A stretch of 64,000 nt of DNA from Acidobacteriota bacterium (GTDB taxonomy: Bacteria; Acidobacteriota; Thermoanaerobaculia; Gp7-AA8): NCBI GenBank assembly GCA_003223645.1, contig QHVT01000003.1:124001-188000 (forward strand). The letters run 5' to 3'. Numbering within the stretch: the first letter of the stretch is position 1; every line of letters starts with the position of its first letter. The position numbers were made by a program, and so were the translations under genes. Of this stretch, positions 22,627 through 53,402 are shown one piece after another. The notes beneath the pieces are model-generated. The model saw nothing but the letters and a program-made list of their open reading frames with translations, did not search any database and was not told where the DNA came from.

Positions 22627-22713
22627 TGTGGAGCGGCGGCCGCCCTCGGCCGCCGGGTCAATTGGCAGTGATCATCCGCCGTCCTTGGCGCCCGAGGGCG
22701 GGCGCCGCTCCAC
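22627..22713. repeat. Palindromic element, family D (GTGGAGCGGCGGCC), copy 1
   Basis: Left arm GTGGAGCGGCGGCC near 22628 and right inverted arm ending GCCGCTCCACA at 22713, in the gap between the convergent DUF5916 and lipase genes. The inner part is more diverged than in the 71-bp copies. A plausible bidirectional terminator position. Confidence 0.75.
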
Positions 22714-23741: not shown

Positions 23742-26117
<2,376 letters not shown>

Positions 26118-41840: not shown

Positions 41841-44300
<2,460 letters not shown>

Positions 44301-45400: not shown

Positions 45401-48400
45401 ATGCGGTTCCTCTCTCCCGCTCTGGTGCTCCTCGTTCTCGCGTTCCCTCTCCTTGGCCAGGAGTTCGACGACTGCGATGCGAACTTCATCGCTTTCATCG
45501 GATCGAGCGCGTATCAGTTCTCGCCGAATCATCCCGGCGAGCTCGGAACCGTGCGATTGTTCTCGATCCTCTCGTATCAGCGCGCTGCACACGAGAAGCG
45601 TTACGGCTTCGCGGTGTGGCAGGTGCGCATCGATCGCGTGGAAGACGGGAGTCGCGTGATGAGCACCGGCGGACGCGCGTTCATCGGACGCGACGGCGCC
45701 GCGGTCGCGGAGTTCTACTGGGACGGCCGCGACGACACCGGACAGCTCGTTCCCGCCGGCAAGTATCGCTACACTTTCGTCGCCCGTTACCTCGGCGACC
45801 GCATCGCGCGTCTGCGCGCGCTTCCCGACTCGTACGACGCCGTCCTCGAAGATCACGAAGAAGCGCTCGCCTCGAGCGATGAAGTGATCGTCGACTACGA
45901 TCTGCCGCTGCAGCAGTCGCGCGACCTGCGTCTCTCCGCGCACGCGACGAGCTGCCAGGTGCAGCAGCACGCGCCGATGGAAGCCGGCTTCGCCTACAAC
46001 TTCTATTACGGCTCGACGCACTCGCATTCAAATTGGTCGGACGGCGGACAGCCGACGACGAACTGCGCGTCCGGCAACGCGTACGGCAGCGGCACGTTCG
46101 CGCCTGCCGACGTCTACAACTACGCGCGCAACACCGCGGGACTCGACTACTGGCTCATCAACGAGCACAACCACCTCATCAACGACGCGATGGACACGAA
46201 CCTCCCGCCGACGACCGAGGTGAAGGTGCGGCAGCGCTATGCGGACGGATTGGCGCAGGCCAACACGTCCACGGTCAGCGGCTCGTTCGTCGCGCTGTAC
46301 GGAATGGAGTGGGGCGTGCTGACGAATCCCGATGAGGGGCACGTCACGCTCATCGAGACGCCAAAGCTCTTCGGATGGGAAACGTGCTCGACCTGCAACG
46401 GTCCGAATCCCGAGTGCACGGCAGGCACGAATTGCTACTTCGACGTCTTCACTCCGAAACGCTTCGCGTACCTCACGCTCTATGCGCGCTCGGTGGCGAA
46501 TCCCTCGTCGGCCGGCGCGCTCGGCGTGCTCAATCACCCGTCCGCCGGTCACTTCGACAACCTCGCGTTCGACGCGAACGCGGACAACGCGATCCAAGGC
46601 GTCGCGGTGCGCAGCGGACTCGCATTCACGACCGCGACCGACTGCGCGAACGCGAACGTCGGCGCGACCGACTACAGCGATCAGTGGAAGGCCGCGCTCA
46701 ACAAAGGATTCCACGTCGGACCGACCGCCGATCACGACGCGCACTGCAACAACTATGGCATGGGGCTACCGACGCGCACCGTGTACCTCGCGGCCTCGCT
46801 CACGAAGGCGAACATCATGGCCGCGCATCGCGCGCGGCACTTCTATGCGACCGAGGATCCGAACGCGCAGCTCGTGTTCCGCACCAGCGACAGCGCGCAC
46901 GTCATGGGCGACATCTTCAACGCCGCCGGCGGCGCGACGCTGGTGATGAACCTCTACGATCCTGACGGCGAGACGATCTCGTCGATCGAGCTGTGGCGCG
47001 GCCAAATCGGCGGCGGCGTTCCGGCCGGGCCGTACGCGACGTGGTCGAACACGTCGAGCGCGACGACGACCGAGTCGCTCACGTCCGGCACGTATTACTA
47101 TTACGTCCACGCCGTGCAGTCCGACGGGCACGACCTCTGGTCGTCGCCGATGTGGATCACGTATCAGGCCGGCGGCGGCGACACGACTCCGCCAACGACC
47201 TCGATCACCGCGCCGTCGAATGGCGCAACGGTCTCGGGCACGACGGACGTGACCGCGTCCGCATCCGACAACGTCGGCGTGACGAGAGTCGAGTTCTGGC
47301 TCGACGGCGCGCTGCAGTCGACCGACACGACATCGCCGTACGCGTGGAGCTGGAACACCGCGAGCGTTGCGAACGGCTCGCACACGCTCGCGTCGAAAGC
47401 GTACGACGCGGCGAACAACGCCGGCACGTCGACAAACGTCAGCGTGACGGTCAGCAACGTCGTATCGGGAAGCGCTGACGTCTCGGGATGGATCGTCACG
47501 CAGGCGAATGCCGCCGGCACGTACACGATTCCGGCGGGCACGATCATTCCGGCCGAGGGGTATTTGGTCATCGCGCGCGACGCGACGAAGGCCGCGTTCG
47601 AGACGTTCTGGGCGCGCACCCTCGGCAGCAACGTCGTCTATCTCACCACTGCCGGCGCGATGCCGGTGATCAACGGCGACGAAAACTTCACGCTGAAGAA
47701 CGCGTCGTCCGTCGTCGTCGACGGACCGACTCCGTCGCAGCCGGCGACGGCCGCGAAGTCGCTGCAGCGCGTCGATCCGTGCGGATCAACGTGGAACACG
47801 CTTGTCGACACGTCCGGCAATCCCGGCAGCGGCGCGGGCGGCGGATGCGGCGGCGGCGTGAAGATCAACGAGCACTCCGACGCTAGCGGCACCGGCAACT
47901 TCATCTACGAGTTCATCGAGCTGCACAACGATTCAGCAACCGCCGGCGATACGACCGCACCAACTGTCTCGATCACGGCTCCATCGAGTGGTGCGACCGT
48001 CTCGGGCGCTTTGAATGTGACCGCGTCCGCATCCGACAACGTCGGCGTGACGACGGTCGAGTTTTATCTCGACGGCGTGTTGAAATCGACCGACACCACG
48101 TCGCCGTATGCGTGGAGCTGGGACACCACGACGGCGACGAATGCATCGCACGCGCTCGTCGCGAAGGCGTACGACGCGGCAAACAACATCGGCACGTCGA
48201 CGACCGTCAACGTGACGGTGAGCAACGGCGTGCCGATCAACATCGGCGGCTACACGATCACGCAGGCCAATGCGACGCTGACGTACACGATTCCGGCCGG
48301 CACGACGATTCCGTCGCACGGCTACGTCGTCATCGGCCGCAACGCGACGCAGGCGCAGTTCCAGACGTTCTGGGGCGTCACCCTCGGCAGCAACGTCGTC

Positions 48401-48712
48401 TACATCAACTCCGCCGACACCATGCCGCAGATCAATGGCAGTGAAACCTACACGCTGAAAAACGGCGCGACCACCGTCGACGGCGCGACTGTCGCGATGG
48501 CCAGCGCCGGAGGCGAAAGCCTCAAGCGCCTCAGCGGCTGCAGCGCGGCGGGAACGGAGTCGAGCTGGAGCCGCACCGCGTCATCGACCGGCAACCCCGG
48601 GGCGGGCGGGCCGGCGACGTGCAACAAGGGCGTGTTCATCAACGAGTTCTCGGATGCGTTGGGCACCGGAAATTTCATTTACGAATTCGTAGAGTTGTTT
48701 AACGATAAATAG
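45401..48712 (+). CDS. Large secreted protein: PHP-type metallohydrolase (CehA/McbA-like), Ig-like and lamin-tail-like repeats
   Basis: 1103 aa. Signal peptide (about 1-20), an N-terminal beta domain, then a PHP-like domain from GSTHSHSNWSDG (His207, His209) through DYWLINEHNH, GMEW, GVLNHP and ADHDAH, the usual metal-binding motif order of CehA/McbA-like phosphoesterases. Two tandem modules follow, each an Ig-like domain (TAPSNGATVSG; ASDNVGVTRVEFWLDG) plus a lamin-tail-like domain (YTIPAGT, GYLVIAR, NEFSDA/NEHSDA). The pair at about 590-845 and 850-1103 is a recent-looking duplication. Substrate unknown; probably an extracellular metal-dependent hydrolase on a modular stalk. GGAGG precedes the ATG. 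Confidence 0.88.
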   Translation: MRFLSPALVLLVLAFPLLGQEFDDCDANFIAFIGSSAYQFSPNHPGELGTVRLFSILSYQRAAHEKRYGFAVWQVRIDRVEDGSRVMSTGGRAFIGRDGAAVAEFYWDGRDDTGQLVPAGKYRYTFVARYLGDRIARLRALPDSYDAVLEDHEEALASSDEVIVDYDLPLQQSRDLRLSAHATSCQVQQHAPMEAGFAYNFYYGSTHSHSNWSDGGQPTTNCASGNAYGSGTFAPADVYNYARNTAGLDYWLINEHNHLINDAMDTNLPPTTEVKVRQRYADGLAQANTSTVSGSFVALYGMEWGVLTNPDEGHVTLIETPKLFGWETCSTCNGPNPECTAGTNCYFDVFTPKRFAYLTLYARSVANPSSAGALGVLNHPSAGHFDNLAFDANADNAIQGVAVRSGLAFTTATDCANANVGATDYSDQWKAALNKGFHVGPTADHDAHCNNYGMGLPTRTVYLAASLTKANIMAAHRARHFYATEDPNAQLVFRTSDSAHVMGDIFNAAGGATLVMNLYDPDGETISSIELWRGQIGGGVPAGPYATWSNTSSATTTESLTSGTYYYYVHAVQSDGHDLWSSPMWITYQAGGGDTTPPTTSITAPSNGATVSGTTDVTASASDNVGVTRVEFWLDGALQSTDTTSPYAWSWNTASVANGSHTLASKAYDAANNAGTSTNVSVTVSNVVSGSADVSGWIVTQANAAGTYTIPAGTIIPAEGYLVIARDATKAAFETFWARTLGSNVVYLTTAGAMPVINGDENFTLKNASSVVVDGPTPSQPATAAKSLQRVDPCGSTWNTLVDTSGNPGSGAGGGCGGGVKINEHSDASGTGNFIYEFIELHNDSATAGDTTAPTVSITAPSSGATVSGALNVTASASDNVGVTTVEFYLDGVLKSTDTTSPYAWSWDTTTATNASHALVAKAYDAANNIGTSTTVNVTVSNGVPINIGGYTITQANATLTYTIPAGTTIPSHGYVVIGRNATQAQFQTFWGVTLGSNVVYINSADTMPQINGSETYTLKNGATTVDGATVAMASAGGESLKRLSGCSAAGTESSWSRTASSTGNPGAGGPATCNKGVFINEFSDALGTGNFIYEFVELFNDK

Positions 48713-48782
48713 TGGAGCGGCGGCCGCCCTCGGCCGCCGACCTCTCGCGAGAAACCGGCGGCCGAAGCGGCCGCCGCTCCAC
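48712..48782. repeat. Palindromic element, family D, 71-bp form
   Basis: GTGGAGCGGCGGCC arm, inner CTCTCGCGAGA loop, inverted arm ending GCCGCCGCTCCAC. The first G is the last base of the upstream TAG stop codon. Confidence 0.88.
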
Positions 48783-48879
48783 GTGTCGTCTCGCGAAACT
48801 GCGACGGCGTACACCCGAACCCTTTTCTGAACGCATACGTTAGCGAATATCCCGCCGCGGCTGCAGATTGATCACGCTC

Positions 48880-49431
48880 ATGTTGAAGACAACACTACTT
48901 GCCGCGCTTTTGTTTGTCGCCGTCACCGCGCGAGGCGCATTCACGCTCACCAGTCCTGCTGTCTCCGAAGGGGGAACGCTTGCCGAAACGACGGTCCTCA
49001 ACGCGCTCGACTGCCGCGGGCCGAACCGCTCCCCCGCGTTGCAATGGTCGGACGCGCCGCCGAACACGCAGAGCTTCGTCGTGCTCCTCGACGATTACGA
49101 AGCGCGGATGGGCGACGGCTTCATTCACTGGGCCGCGTACAACATCCCCGCCTCGGCGAACGGACTCGCGGAAAACGCCGGCGCGTCCGACGTGTCGCTG
49201 CCGCCCGGCTCGCGCCACGCGTACAGCGATTTTCTGCAGCGCAACTACGGCGGCCCGTGTCCGCCCGCCGGCCCGCCGCACAAATATCGATTCACCGTCT
49301 ACGCGCTCGACATCCCCACGATCGACGATGCCGGCACGCCGATGACCTGGCGAAAACTGCGCGTCGTCATTCACGGGCACGTCCTCGCGCAGGCATCGCT
49401 CACCACGTTGTATGGACGAAAGGAAAGCTGA
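48880..49431 (+). CDS. PEBP/YbhB-YbcL family (Raf kinase inhibitor-like) secreted protein
   Basis: 183 aa. Signal peptide (about 1-19), then a PEBP fold with the hallmark SPALQWSDAPPNTQSFVVLLDD segment and the HWAAYNIP strand, and GPCPPAGPPHKYRFTVYALD, all conserved in bacterial YbhB/YbcL. The family binds phosphorylated or phospholipid ligands in eukaryotes; the bacterial role is unclear. The last bases, CTGA, overlap the likely start of the next gene. No clear Shine-Dalgarno sequence. Confidence 0.88.
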   Translation: MLKTTLLAALLFVAVTARGAFTLTSPAVSEGGTLAETTVLNALDCRGPNRSPALQWSDAPPNTQSFVVLLDDYEARMGDGFIHWAAYNIPASANGLAENAGASDVSLPPGSRHAYSDFLQRNYGGPCPPAGPPHKYRFTVYALDIPTIDDAGTPMTWRKLRVVIHGHVLAQASLTTLYGRKES

Positions 49432-49805
49432 CGACCGAACAAACGATCGCCGCCCTCGACACCGAGTATCAGCTTGCTGTTGAGAAGAACGATGCCGCGA
49501 CGATGGACCGCATCCTCGCCGACGACTTCGTGCTCATCACCGGCACCGGAAAACACTTCACGAAGAAAGACCTGCTCAACGAAGCGAAGAGCGGCCACAT
49601 CGTCTACGAACAGCAGCGCGACACGAATCAGACCGTGCGCGTGTGGGGTGACACCGCGGTCATCACCGCGCTGCTGTCAGCGAAGGGAACGGAGGAGGGA
49701 AAACCGTTCGCCTACCGCGTGTGGTTCAGCGACACGTACGTCCGCACGCAGAGCGGCTGGCGCTACGTCCTCGGCCAGGCAGGCGGCCGGCTCGCGCCGG
49801 AGTAA
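49428..49805 (+). CDS. DUF4440/NTF2-like protein, probably starting at CTG
   Basis: 125 aa if translation begins at CTG 49428. The sequence then opens (M)TTEQTIAALDTEYQLAVEKND, the exact N-terminal helix expected for DUF4440/SnoaL-like proteins, with GGAAAG just upstream. No ATG, GTG or TTG occurs in frame for about 25 codons before it. The first in-frame ATG (49503) would remove the first helix and 25 residues. The CTGA overlap with the preceding stop mimics ATGA coupling elsewhere in this window. The cone-shaped fold can bind small molecules or act as an enzyme; function unknown. Confidence 0.75.
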   Translation: MTTEQTIAALDTEYQLAVEKNDAATMDRILADDFVLITGTGKHFTKKDLLNEAKSGHIVYEQQRDTNQTVRVWGDTAVITALLSAKGTEEGKPFAYRVWFSDTYVRTQSGWRYVLGQAGGRLAPE

Positions 49806-49810
49806 TGCCT

Positions 49811-49838
49811 CTGTGGAGCGGCGGCCGCCGCTCCACAG
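49811..49838. repeat. Minimal family D palindrome
   Basis: A perfect 28-nt palindrome, CTGTGGAGCGGC / GGCC / GCCGCTCCACAG, consisting only of the outer arms of the 71-bp element. It starts 5 nt after the DUF4440 stop. Confidence 0.85.
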
Positions 49839-49872: not shown

Positions 49873-50427
49873 ATGCGCGCTTTCATCGCGTTGCTTCTCC
49901 TTTTTGCGCCTTCGCTCTATGCGCGCGATCGTGCCGTGCTCATCTACCCGCGCGAGCGTGCGATGTTCCGCCGCGTGTTCTACACGCCGCATCAGTGGCT
50001 GCTGCGCCGGCGTCTCGCGAAGACGTACGACGTCGAAGTGCACAGCCAGGTCGCGACGGACGATGAGCTGTTCGCGATCGACGTGGACGGCGCGAAGCTG
50101 CTCGTCATCTCCGGACACGGCGATCCGTTCTCGATCTCACTCAACGGCCGCAACGCGCGCTCGCTCGACGCGGACGACGCCGATCGCCTCGCCGAATTTT
50201 TCTCGCGCCTCGATCCCTTCGCGACGATCGTTCTGCAGAGTTGCGACACCGGCCGCGGTTTCGCGCACCTCGTGAAAAACGCTGCCGGACCCACACGCCG
50301 CGTGATCGCCGCGAACGGCGAGATCCCGTGGAACGGAATGCGGATCACGTCGATCGATCCGTTCGACGTCACGATTCGCTGCCGCGACAGCGCGGGCGAT
50401 TGGGATTGCACGCTCCGCTTGAGATAG
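49873..50427 (+). CDS. Secreted protein with a caspase/CHAT-like His-Cys dyad
   Basis: 184 aa. Signal peptide (about 1-17), then a compact alpha/beta protein. LLVISGHGDP (His82) closes one strand and ATIVLQSCDTGRGF (Cys124) follows another; this His-Gly ... Q-S/A-Cys arrangement is the one found in caspase-fold families such as CHAT, C14 and C25 peptidases. It is much shorter than these and secreted, with no fused domain. The dyad suggests a cysteine peptidase or pseudo-peptidase; no family name assigned. TACAAT at 49846-49851 may be its -10. Confidence 0.6.
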   Translation: MRAFIALLLLFAPSLYARDRAVLIYPRERAMFRRVFYTPHQWLLRRRLAKTYDVEVHSQVATDDELFAIDVDGAKLLVISGHGDPFSISLNGRNARSLDADDADRLAEFFSRLDPFATIVLQSCDTGRGFAHLVKNAAGPTRRVIAANGEIPWNGMRITSIDPFDVTIRCRDSAGDWDCTLRLR

Positions 50428-50428
50428 G

Positions 50429-50550
50429 GCTGAGTGCAGAGTGCTGAGTGCAGAGTGCTGAGTGCCGGGTGCTGAGCCGTTGATAACTCAGCACCCAGCA
50501 CCCAGCACCCAGCACCCAGCACCCGCACCCCGCACCCGCACCCAGCGCCC
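50429..50550. repeat. Palindromic element, family C, copy 2
   Basis: Left arm of GAGTGCAGAGTGCT and GGGTGCTGAG units (50429-50476), right inverted arm of CAGCACC units (50487-50550). It begins 1 nt after the stop of the His-Cys protein gene and ends about 25 nt before the next ATG. Confidence 0.85.
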
Positions 50551-50575
50551 GCCCCGCGATATCCTTCCCGTCCGG

Positions 50576-52936
50576 ATGCTCTTCAAGAAGTCTCGCTTCG
50601 GTCCTCGCCTCGTTCACGCGGCGCGCTCGGGCGCGCATTACCGCGACGTGCACGTTTTCATCGGCGGCACGGGAGCGGTCGGCGGCGCTGCGGCGATGCA
50701 GATGGTGGCGATGTTCGAGGAGATGATGACGATCGCGCCGCCGTCGTCGGCCGACGACGTGCCGGTGCTCATCGTCACCGGCCGCAGCGACGATGAAGTG
50801 CATACGTTCGAGTCGCGCCTCAAACGCTTCACGCGCTCGCGCTGGGGCGCCGGCACGATCCCGAAGCACTTCGAGCACGGCTACCTCACGCCGGGCGGCG
50901 TCTACGTCGCGATCTCGAAGTTCGAGTTGAAGCCGGTGCCCGGACTCGAGATCGTGACCGATGCCGACAGCGCGTCGCGCCAGAGTGCAGTCGACGAGTT
51001 TCTGAATTTCGCGAACGTGTCGACTCCCGAGCAACTCGTCGACTACGTGCGCGCAACGCGTCCCGTCACGTCGTTCCTCGAAGATCGCAAGCAGCGCCTG
51101 CGCGACTACGGCGACAAGCCGTTCCGCTCCGTGCTTCTCGGCTTTCCGCTGCCGAGCATCCTCGCGTATCAAACCGGCGGTCTCGGCATCGTCGCGAACG
51201 CCCTCGGCCTCGGCACGGAGCTCACGACGCGCGTGCGCGACGAATTCGAGAACGCGTTCGCCGACGATCTCGTCGCCGTGCGCGAACAGTGGGGCGCGCG
51301 CGTGCTGGTCGCGCACACTACCGGCGTCGGCGGGATGTATGACGAGACGCCCGACGCCCGCACGACGCCGCGCCTCGGCTTCGCGCACGCGTCGCGCGAC
51401 GAAGCGCTGCGGCAGAAGCACATCGACGCCGAGGAGCTGATGCAGAAGTACGCGCAGCGCGGCGTGCTCATGCTCGTCACCGCCGCCGCGATCGGCATCG
51501 ACGAAGTGCGCATGCGCGAGTCGATTCCGCTGCACGGCGGCATCGTGAAGGCGCTGCGCGACGCGAAGCATGAGCTCTTCCGCGGCGCGCGCGAACGCAA
51601 GCAGTCGATCCATCTCTTCAAGCCGATCACGCTGAAACTGGATGTGGCGACCGCTGCCCTCAGCGGTCGCGGTGCCGCTGAGGGCAGCGGCACCCACAAT
51701 CTGCACTTCAAGCTCGGCGACGAAATCCATCCCGAGTACGCCATCCGCAGCGGCGAGAACGGCTTCTTCAGCGTCGCGAATGCGGACGCGCTCTACCGCG
51801 TGATGAAAGTCGCGTCGGTGTCGGAGCTCGGACACGTGCTCGCATCGGTCGGCCTTCTCGGCGACGATCCGAACGTGCCGTGGTTCAAAGACAGCATCTG
51901 CTATTACACCGAGACCGTGAATTCGAAGCAGGTCTTCGATTTTCTCTATCAGCCGGTGCTGCTGAACGCGCAGCTGAGCGGGATCGATCCGATGGCGCTG
52001 CAGGACCTCGGCTCGGCGAAACATCAGGCCGAGCTGCACACGCTCGCGCTGCTCATCACGCTGCATCGATTGCGTACGCTCGACATCGACGCACTCGAGG
52101 AGAATCCGCACGCGTCGTTCGATCCGAAGCGCTTCCTCCTCGACAACTCGCGTGCGCTCACGTTCCGCGACGTCGAGCTGTGGGACGTCGACACGCTCGC
52201 AAAGGACCTGCACACGCTCGTCACCGCCGACAAGCCGGGACAACTGCTGACGCTGAAGCCGATGCGCGATCCCGGACAGTTCGGCGCGCGGGACGAAGCG
52301 CATCTTGCCGTCCTCAAAGTCGTGCTCGACGCCGTCTTCACCGTCACGTCGCTCGGAACGCCGATCGTCGTCGACGACAACACCGCGCGCTGCGGCTACT
52401 ACGTCGCGCCGTTCGGGAAGATCGTGACGCAGGAAGACTCGCTCGCGCGAATGTTTGACGACCCGGCGCCGGAGTACCGCGCGTTTCAAATGAGCGTGAA
52501 CGGCTTCATCGATCTCCGTCCGCACGGCATCGTGTCCAGCGTGAAACTTCCCGCCGATCTCCACCCCGGCGCGGTGACGACGCATCGCGACGAAGCATCC
52601 TTCGCCGCGCGCGTCGCATCCCTCGAGCCGTATTCATTTTTCGCGACGTGCGGCCTCGTCGCGATCCTCCACCGCCTCCGCGCCCTCGGCCGCCTGCTCA
52701 CGCAGTCCCGCACCGACCTCGGCACCATGCAGGACTGGCTCTGGACCATGCTCCGCGACGAACGCGGCCACACCTACGTCGTCCCCGGCGTCGTCGAAGC
52801 CCTGCGCATGATCTCCGAGGCGCAGGAGAAGACGACGGGAACCGAGTGGCTCGACGGGATCTGGGGTTATGAGCGAAGACTGCCGAAGATGCGGCTGGCG
52901 GAGATTGTCGACGCTGTGGAACGGCGGAAGCACTAA
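50576..52936 (+). CDS. Large protein of unknown function with an N-terminal Rossmann-like motif
   Basis: 786 aa, cytoplasmic (no signal or membrane helix). Starts at MLFKKSRF; upstream codons only translate the palindromic element. The strand-loop VHVFIGGTGAVGGAAA (about 22-37) looks like a dinucleotide-binding GxGxxG loop, and a RVLVAHTTGVGGMYDE segment (about 240-256) recalls a second strand-loop in NAD-dependent enzymes. After that I recognise nothing; the C-terminal half is helical. It contains an in-frame 54-bp palindromic element at residues 357-374. Possibly a multi-domain dehydrogenase-like enzyme, but the function is open. Confidence 0.65.
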   Translation: MLFKKSRFGPRLVHAARSGAHYRDVHVFIGGTGAVGGAAAMQMVAMFEEMMTIAPPSSADDVPVLIVTGRSDDEVHTFESRLKRFTRSRWGAGTIPKHFEHGYLTPGGVYVAISKFELKPVPGLEIVTDADSASRQSAVDEFLNFANVSTPEQLVDYVRATRPVTSFLEDRKQRLRDYGDKPFRSVLLGFPLPSILAYQTGGLGIVANALGLGTELTTRVRDEFENAFADDLVAVREQWGARVLVAHTTGVGGMYDETPDARTTPRLGFAHASRDEALRQKHIDAEELMQKYAQRGVLMLVTAAAIGIDEVRMRESIPLHGGIVKALRDAKHELFRGARERKQSIHLFKPITLKLDVATAALSGRGAAEGSGTHNLHFKLGDEIHPEYAIRSGENGFFSVANADALYRVMKVASVSELGHVLASVGLLGDDPNVPWFKDSICYYTETVNSKQVFDFLYQPVLLNAQLSGIDPMALQDLGSAKHQAELHTLALLITLHRLRTLDIDALEENPHASFDPKRFLLDNSRALTFRDVELWDVDTLAKDLHTLVTADKPGQLLTLKPMRDPGQFGARDEAHLAVLKVVLDAVFTVTSLGTPIVVDDNTARCGYYVAPFGKIVTQEDSLARMFDDPAPEYRAFQMSVNGFIDLRPHGIVSSVKLPADLHPGAVTTHRDEASFAARVASLEPYSFFATCGLVAILHRLRALGRLLTQSRTDLGTMQDWLWTMLRDERGHTYVVPGVVEALRMISEAQEKTTGTEWLDGIWGYERRLPKMRLAEIVDAVERRKH
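51644..51697. repeat. 54-bp family J palindromic element inside the 786-aa gene
   Basis: Palindromic 54-mer read in phase zero as exactly 18 codons (residues 357-374, encoding V-A-T-A-A-L-S-G-R...G-T-H). Its reverse complement matches 56191-56244 at 52 of 54 positions. The two mismatches are opposite each other in the stem (A-T versus G-C). Confidence 0.92.
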
Positions 52937-53325: not shown

Positions 53326-53402
53326 CCAGTGGAGCGGCGGCCGCTTCGGCCGCCGACCTCTCGCGAGAATCCGGCGGCCGAGAGCGGCCGCCGCTCCACT
53401 GG
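53326..53402. repeat. Palindromic element, family D, extended form
   Basis: CCAGTGGAGCGGCGG to CCGCTCCACTGG, containing the same CTCTCGCGAGA loop as 48712-48782. It begins directly after the stop codon of the retropepsin-like gene. Confidence 0.88.

Follow-up and report, generated by a model that had tools for sequence, protein, structure and literature searches.

A small, probably exported Acidobacteriota protein with a conserved His/Cys dyad and a predicted minimal caspase fold

The clan CD fold consists of a six-stranded sheet with one antiparallel strand, together with helices alpha1-alpha5. Metacaspases prefer Arg or Lys at P1, and we take the acidic S1 residue of metacaspases and orthocaspases to be placed two before the catalytic Cys, which is presumably also the position of the S1 Gln of caspases. 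The S1 pocket of the C14 metacaspases and orthocaspases is described as acidic (PMC5756287), and that of the caspases as a basic pocket made up of a Gln (Gln161 in caspase-3, Gln184 in caspase-7) and two arginines, one of which lies in loop L1 (PMC4357240, PMC5756287). The same account states that within C14 cleavage after negatively charged residues is confined to the caspases (PMC5756287). With regard to prokaryotes, one survey of 671 metacaspases reports 398 without another Pfam domain and 46 in which the domain is preceded by one N-terminal helix, possibly a signal peptide (PMC3501461). For DUF4347, the protein PA0256 of Pseudomonas aeruginosa is reported to bind Hcp3 and to be toxic in E. 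coli (PMC8262886).

How, then, does a protein of 184 residues encoded in an Acidobacteriota genome compare with these enzymes? Its gene (Table 1) is found in what is called here the window, the whole stretch of 64,000 nucleotides that was analysed (G000:C21:124001-188000), which comes from a genome of 6.38 Mb in 51 contigs. The open reading frame starts with ATG, stops with TAG and is a real gene under purifying selection. Orthologues with intact frames are present in three further genomes (G001, G007 and G011; tblastn, E 1.7e-72 to 1.2e-59), with 55-64% identity (64, 61 and 57%, respectively, over the part matched by tblastn) and a mean column identity of 74% in the four-row alignment. Beyond the N-terminus, the six pairwise comparisons among the four orthologues give dN values of 0.27-0.42 against dS values of 0.58-1.63, and third codon positions are the commonest differences in every pair. 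Because the conservation and the codon-position pattern both follow the plus-strand frame that starts at 49873, the 178-aa frame at 49992-50528 on the minus strand and the other overlapping frames were rejected as real genes.

Table 1. Coordinates within the window of the gene, its putative functional elements and the adjacent frames.
Feature	Position	Strand	Basis
Open reading frame, 184 aa, candidate minimal caspase-fold protein	49873..50427	+	Orthologues in 3 further genomes, purifying selection
Signal-peptide-like N-terminus, codons 1-17	49873..49923	+	Hydrophobic stretch in 4/4 orthologues; putative cleavage site
Predicted strand 1 (DRAVLIYP), codons 19-26	49927..49950	+	DSSP of AlphaFold2 models, E19-26
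Codons 27-33, with Arg27, Glu28 and Arg33 just behind strand 1, where loop L1 of caspases has an S1 arginine	49951..49971	+	Invariant in 4/4; putative S1 role after PMC4357240
Predicted strand 3 and putative catalytic His motif, codons 76-83	50098..50121	+	H82, G83 invariant; E76-80 in both models
His82 codon (S-G-H-G)	50116-50118	+	
Gly83 codon	50119-50121	+	
Predicted strand 4 and putative catalytic Cys motif LQSCDTG, codons 118-127	50224..50253	+	L121, Q122, S123, C124, T126, G127 invariant; E118-123 in both models
Gln122 codon	50236-50238	+	
Cys124 codon (L-Q-S-C-D-T-G)	50242-50244	+	
Cys170 and Cys179, C-terminal hairpin, codons 170-179	50380..50409	+	Invariant in 4/4; low-confidence hairpin; candidate disulfide
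Carbohydrate phosphorylase	41841-44297		Pfam
Ig/LTD protein	45401-48709		Pfam
PEBP	48868-49428		Pfam
125-aa frame	ends at 49805		
824-aa frame directly downstream of the gene	50462-52936		No Pfam match at E 0.001

As far as it has been searched for, the gene appears to be patchy and lineage-specific. Of the 18 genomes in its family (G000 to G017) four carry it, and some of those that lack it are only 75-90% complete. A search of 100 related genomes at E 0.1 gave a row in 14, four of which represent the gene (E 1e-59 or better) and ten of which are weak (E 0.016-0.096). At the level of the class, with a threshold of E 0.05, rows in 10 of 148 genomes comprise the same four and six weak ones (E 0.005-0.037), and in a phylum sample 5 of 396 pass E 0.01, two being family members (G000 and G011) and three chance-like. 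The GHG...Cys pair in its proper place is absent, by eye, from the weak matches L002, L006-L015 and L021-L023, and a pattern check of L036-L039, four of the six weak class-search matches (L036-L041), returned a single irrelevant match on the opposite strand in L037. Contig scans with the orthologue alignment (two degenerate patterns) found no genomes beyond G001, G007 and G011, and no informative match came from contig scans with the single window protein or from searches for it in viral contigs, plasmids and phages. Among the titles listed by literature searches none refers to the family, which may nevertheless be in print.

The protein is probably exported, as judged from its N-terminus. In all four orthologues a hydrophobic stretch (best 10-residue Kyte-Doolittle mean 2.5-3.1) directly precedes predicted strand 1, the one in the G007 copy being short and without a good cleavage site. 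The mature window protein would start at R18, and its invariant Cys170 and Cys179, which are nine residues apart, would fit an oxidising extracytoplasmic location.

An earlier note on this DNA had described a caspase-like dyad of His82 in SGHG and Cys124 in LQSCDTG, with no other domain. Both residues are indeed present, are kept in four of four orthologues and fall on the catalytic pair of the CHAT, DUF4347 and C14 profiles, and no Pfam family reaches its cut-off in any of the four sequences. Around the dyad, H82, G83, P85, Q122, S123, C124, T126 and G127 are invariant in all orthologues, as are R27, E28, R33, H40, Q41, H57, C170 and C179, and when six DUF4347 sequences are added to make ten rows, H82, G83, P85, C124 and G129 are invariant throughout. 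A glycine adjoining the catalytic His is given as a clan CD feature (PMC4357240), and is represented here by the invariant G83.

Since no Pfam cut-off is passed, the protein is best regarded as a divergent protein of clan CD type, and membership in CHAT, C14 or DUF4347 was rejected. With HMMER the window protein reaches 14.7 bits against CHAT (PF12770; cut-off 24, E 0.021) and 11.9 bits against DUF4347 (PF14252; cut-off 24.6, E 0.19); CHAT is listed for one of the four orthologues and DUF4347 for two, at a best E of 0.023. Peptidase_C14 (PF00656) is unlisted up to E 10 for all four, as is any Pfam family of the gingipains (C25) or the MARTX-type C80 peptidases, and DUF6226 is listed for one orthologue at E 0.13. 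NCBIfam and PADLOC gave nothing for the window protein, and across NCBIfam, PADLOC and PHROGs there was nothing or weak rows only (E 0.19 and 0.27). Sequence searches of solved structures returned unrelated rows only (best E 1.3 and 0.11) and no solved caspase chain.

Comparison of profiles by hhalign brings the relationship into better view. The CHAT profile was made from ten of the genome's 11 CHAT domains (the eleventh being without a locus), the C14 profile from the full set of nine C14 domains found there, and the DUF4347 profile from six of eight phylum-sample matches, namely five small frames, of which one misses the Pfam cut-off, and a domain from a frame of 2400 residues. The orthologue group scores 37.8 against C14 (E 4.8e-5), 34.1 against DUF4347 (E 0.00013) and 29.6 against CHAT (E 0.0011), each E value being that of one comparison, with HHalign probabilities of 68, 53 and 20%, respectively. 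Column shuffles of the query reached the real score in 0 of 200 cases for each profile, with maxima of 24.0, 19.7 and 23.0 in the same order, and reversed queries scored 20.9 against C14, 14.3 against DUF4347 and 24.9 against CHAT. The last of these is close to the real score, and the CHAT comparison is therefore the least secure. On its own the window protein scores 31.3 against C14, 20.9 against DUF4347 and 23.9 against CHAT, and 45 control chunks cut from 14 other proteins stayed below these values with every profile; the G007 orthologue, taken alone, scores 18.5 against CHAT, which four of the 45 controls exceed. In all three alignments His82 and Cys124 are in register with the catalytic His and Cys. 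The order of strands and catalytic residues had been likened in the earlier note to that of CHAT, C14 and C25 peptidases, and this holds for the register with CHAT and C14, but CHAT is not the best profile match, since C14 and DUF4347 both score higher.

Structure prediction, which had been proposed as a check, yields a caspase-like fold in models of middling confidence. A first AlphaFold2 model, from the four orthologues alone, has a mean pLDDT of 65.2 and a pTM of 0.65, with residues 148-184 below 50, and a second, with the six DUF4347 rows added, has a mean pLDDT of 69.6 and a pTM of 0.71, with residues 149-173 below 50. Both have the order strand-helix-strand-helix-strand-(His)-helix-strand-(Cys)-helix-strand, followed by a poorly modelled tail, with predicted strands at 19-26, 52-60, 76-80, 118-123 and 143-148, predicted helices at 30-36, 39-49, 63-68, 100-111 and 128-138, and low confidence without a confident helix after 148. 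The clan CD feature of a third strand leading to H82 and a fourth to C124 is thus seen in both models; mean pLDDT is about 90 at 71-80 and 111-120, and 52-66 at 81-90 and 121-130, which hold the dyad. In VIA the first model comes closest to a chain of a SAVED-CHAT filament (Z 8.9, 169 aligned, 4.3 A); caspase-3 reaches Z 7.7, and flavodoxins, receivers and dehydrogenases are interleaved with caspases. For the second, SAVED-CHAT again leads (Z 11.8, 174 aligned, 3.8 A), and caspases make up the remaining 49 of the best 50 rows (Z 8.9-10.2). The first model is the cleaner, weaker test of the fold, because the second alignment already assumed a relationship to DUF4347. Foldseek against the PDB gave no match below E 0.001 for either model, with unrelated enzymes on top and SAVED-CHAT ranked 22 (first model) and 5 (second model). 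Against viral predicted structures its best match is an uncharacterised myovirus protein (E 2.5e-4), followed by giant-virus proteins named metacaspase or caspase (E 0.0027 and 0.0097). Neither of the results that would have told against the earlier note, a predicted fold foreign to caspases and a loss of His82 or Cys124 among homologues, was obtained, and a caspase fold is most likely.

The residue two before the catalytic Cys sets the orthologues apart. It is Gln in all four, against Ala or Ser in ten CHATs of the genome, Leu, Arg or His in the six DUF4347 rows, and Asp (eight) or Glu (one) in the nine C14 rows of the genome. A C14 search of 60 genomes including G000 gave 27 matches, of which seven without a recognised site were dropped; the 20 recognised Cys sites, which are from related sequences and in seven cases from the window's own genome, have 19 Asp and one Glu, the site of the Glu (L055) having been chosen by eye from three Cys. 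The acidic residue of metacaspase/orthocaspase type is accordingly missing from the orthologues, and Gln122 in its place predicts a P1 residue other than Arg or Lys, that is, an enzyme without the preference of metacaspases. A further step would be to regard the orthologues as a lineage-specific Acidobacteriota family of exported stand-alone caspases, each about 167 residues long, with a caspase-type S1 pocket formed by Gln122 and Arg27 or Arg33 and cleavage after acidic or at least non-basic residues, though this fuller picture is quite unlikely to hold.

The surroundings of the gene vary between genomes. In G001 it is found in the order phosphorylase, TetR, gene, metallo-beta-lactamase-fold protein; in G007 it follows an MFS and an HtrA-like frame; and in G011 it is preceded by a NorB-type oxidase and a 275-aa frame without a match and followed by an NHL-repeat protein. 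Pfam scans of 17 neighbouring frames at the four loci gave a match for 11 and none for six, the 11 being two phosphorylases, Ig/LTD, PEBP, peptidase M3, a metallo-beta-lactamase fold, TetR, MFS, HtrA-like, NorB-type and NHL. Only the phosphorylase recurs, within the genus and by Pfam name. No conserved partner gene was found beside the gene at the four loci, so the protein probably works alone. The window also holds a dispersed hairpin element (22628-22713, 25081-25151, 48712-48782 and 53329-53399) whose arms begin GTGGAGCGGCGGCC and end, 70-86 nt further along, with an exact or nearly exact reverse complement; immediately upstream of the gene, at 49811-49838, there is a perfect palindrome of this kind, 28 nt long. 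By eye, direct repeats of the GCAGAGTGCTGAGT and CACCCAGCACCCAG types fill approximately 50428-50545, directly behind it.

Taken together, the protein is probably a cysteine endopeptidase that is exported and consists of a single domain, with a minimal caspase/haemoglobinase fold of clan CD type; the fold is that of the predicted models, and we infer the export, the catalysis and the class of substrate. The N-terminal 17 residues would direct the protein out of the cytoplasm, and the remaining 167 or so would make up a single domain, where strand 4 ends in Cys124 as the nucleophile and strand 3 in His82 as the base. A Cys170-Cys179 disulfide would probably lock the C-terminal hairpin, and the enzyme, acting alone, would most likely cleave a single protein or a small number of proteins in the envelope or outside the cell.

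A secreted caspase-fold protein need not be a general peptidase: its action may be limited to itself or to a single partner, or it may be a binding or scaffold protein in which the dyad is structurally kept. The failure to pass any family cut-off would suit such a protein, as would the short segment of about 60 residues after Cys124, where no fifth helix is predicted and the loop at 149-173 is of low confidence. Clan CD is described as having an aromatic residue on loop L5 (PMC4357240), for which the candidate here, W153, is Trp in two of the four orthologues and Arg in the other two, and PMC5756287 cautions that an intact dyad is no proof of activity. Against this, His, Cys and the adjoining Gly are all invariant, and the surveyed bacterial metacaspases are reported to keep the dyad in 84% of cases, with Ser and Tyr the commonest substitutes in the rest (PMC3501461), which leaves this explanation unlikely. 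Less likely still is an antibacterial effector in the manner of PA0256: DUF4347 is the second-best profile match and small stand-alone DUF4347 frames occur in other Acidobacteriota, but the N-terminus is of Sec type, the DUF4347 cut-off is missed, and no secretion-system gene is present among the 11 matched of the 17 neighbouring frames, the six unmatched of which could include an immunity gene. Most improbable of all is another kind of alpha/beta secreted protein (Rossmann, flavodoxin or receiver-like) with GHG and SC-TG by chance. In its favour, the structural lists of the first model consist in large part of dehydrogenases, flavodoxins and receiver domains; against it, all three profile comparisons, controlled by shuffles and chunks, put the dyad in register, and the best 50 VIA rows of the second model are all caspase-fold entries.

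If the protein is the endopeptidase proposed here, it would be a very small active member of the caspase fold and a convenient single-domain model of the fold's minimal needs, and its Gln122 allows a direct test of a wider question: has a caspase-type P1 preference arisen outside animals? If it is not a peptidase, the fold would have been reused as an envelope protein. Otherwise, one small orphan family is added to a genome already rich in caspase-fold proteins.

That genome has 11 CHAT and nine C14 matches, whose genes (among loci L024-L033 and L050-L058) cluster at five places (G000:C23:622-15686, C46:35064-42607, C44:272622-289691, C21:221033-232861 and C10:164627-169625), for instance as C14, CHAT, CHAT, C14 within about 15 kb. 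The clustering suggests proteolytic signalling or defence modules; none of the clusters adjoins the gene at C21:173873. The earlier note had considered a small secreted form to be unusual among largely big, cytoplasmic CHAT proteins. The genome's CHATs agree with this, in that all 11 are in open frames of 833-1407 aa, but the rarity is overstated, since probably secreted C14 relatives exist, both among the 46 surveyed metacaspases with an N-terminal helix (PMC3501461) and in the genome itself, where in at least four of the nine C14 proteins (L050-L053) the caspase domain immediately follows what, with start codons and stretch both judged by eye, resembles a signal peptide. Strand 1 of these four has the form K/R-R-A-L-L-[IV]-G, which resembles the R-A-V-L-I-Y of the protein described here.

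The C14 proteins of the same genome are the nearest in several respects, being the best profile match, with GHG and Cys motifs in register and, for at least four of them, a signal-peptide-like stretch before strand 1, and they differ in their open frames of 306-782 aa against 184 aa and in having Asp or Glu in place of Gln122. DUF4347, as in PA0256 and the small Acidobacteriota forms, shares H-G-x-P and Cys in register and a similar size, but has Gly before the Cys where the protein has Ser. Five small stand-alone frames of this type, of 185-213 aa, were seen in other Acidobacteriota (L043 1438-1992, L044 1381-2019, L045 1357-1932, L046 1336-1932 and L048 1438-2022, the last below the Pfam cut-off); they share their domain type with the Hcp3-bound toxin, and unlike the window protein have no clear signal peptide by eye. 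CHAT is alike in the order and register of His and Cys, and both VIA runs place a SAVED-CHAT first among solved structures, but the window protein falls below the Pfam cut-off and is far from the large frames of the genome's own CHATs. With the metazoan caspases (C14A) the protein shares the strand order, the dyad and a Gln like that of the S1 pocket, with no sequence-level match to solved caspase chains, and its segment after Cys124 is, we assume, shorter than the caspase p10. Export and a single-domain build are therefore already known, and what remains distinctive is how small the protein is, how far it diverges from all families and which residue stands before the Cys. Given that exported caspase relatives are already present in the genome, the protein would be less a wholly new kind of enzyme than a small and divergent form of one already known.
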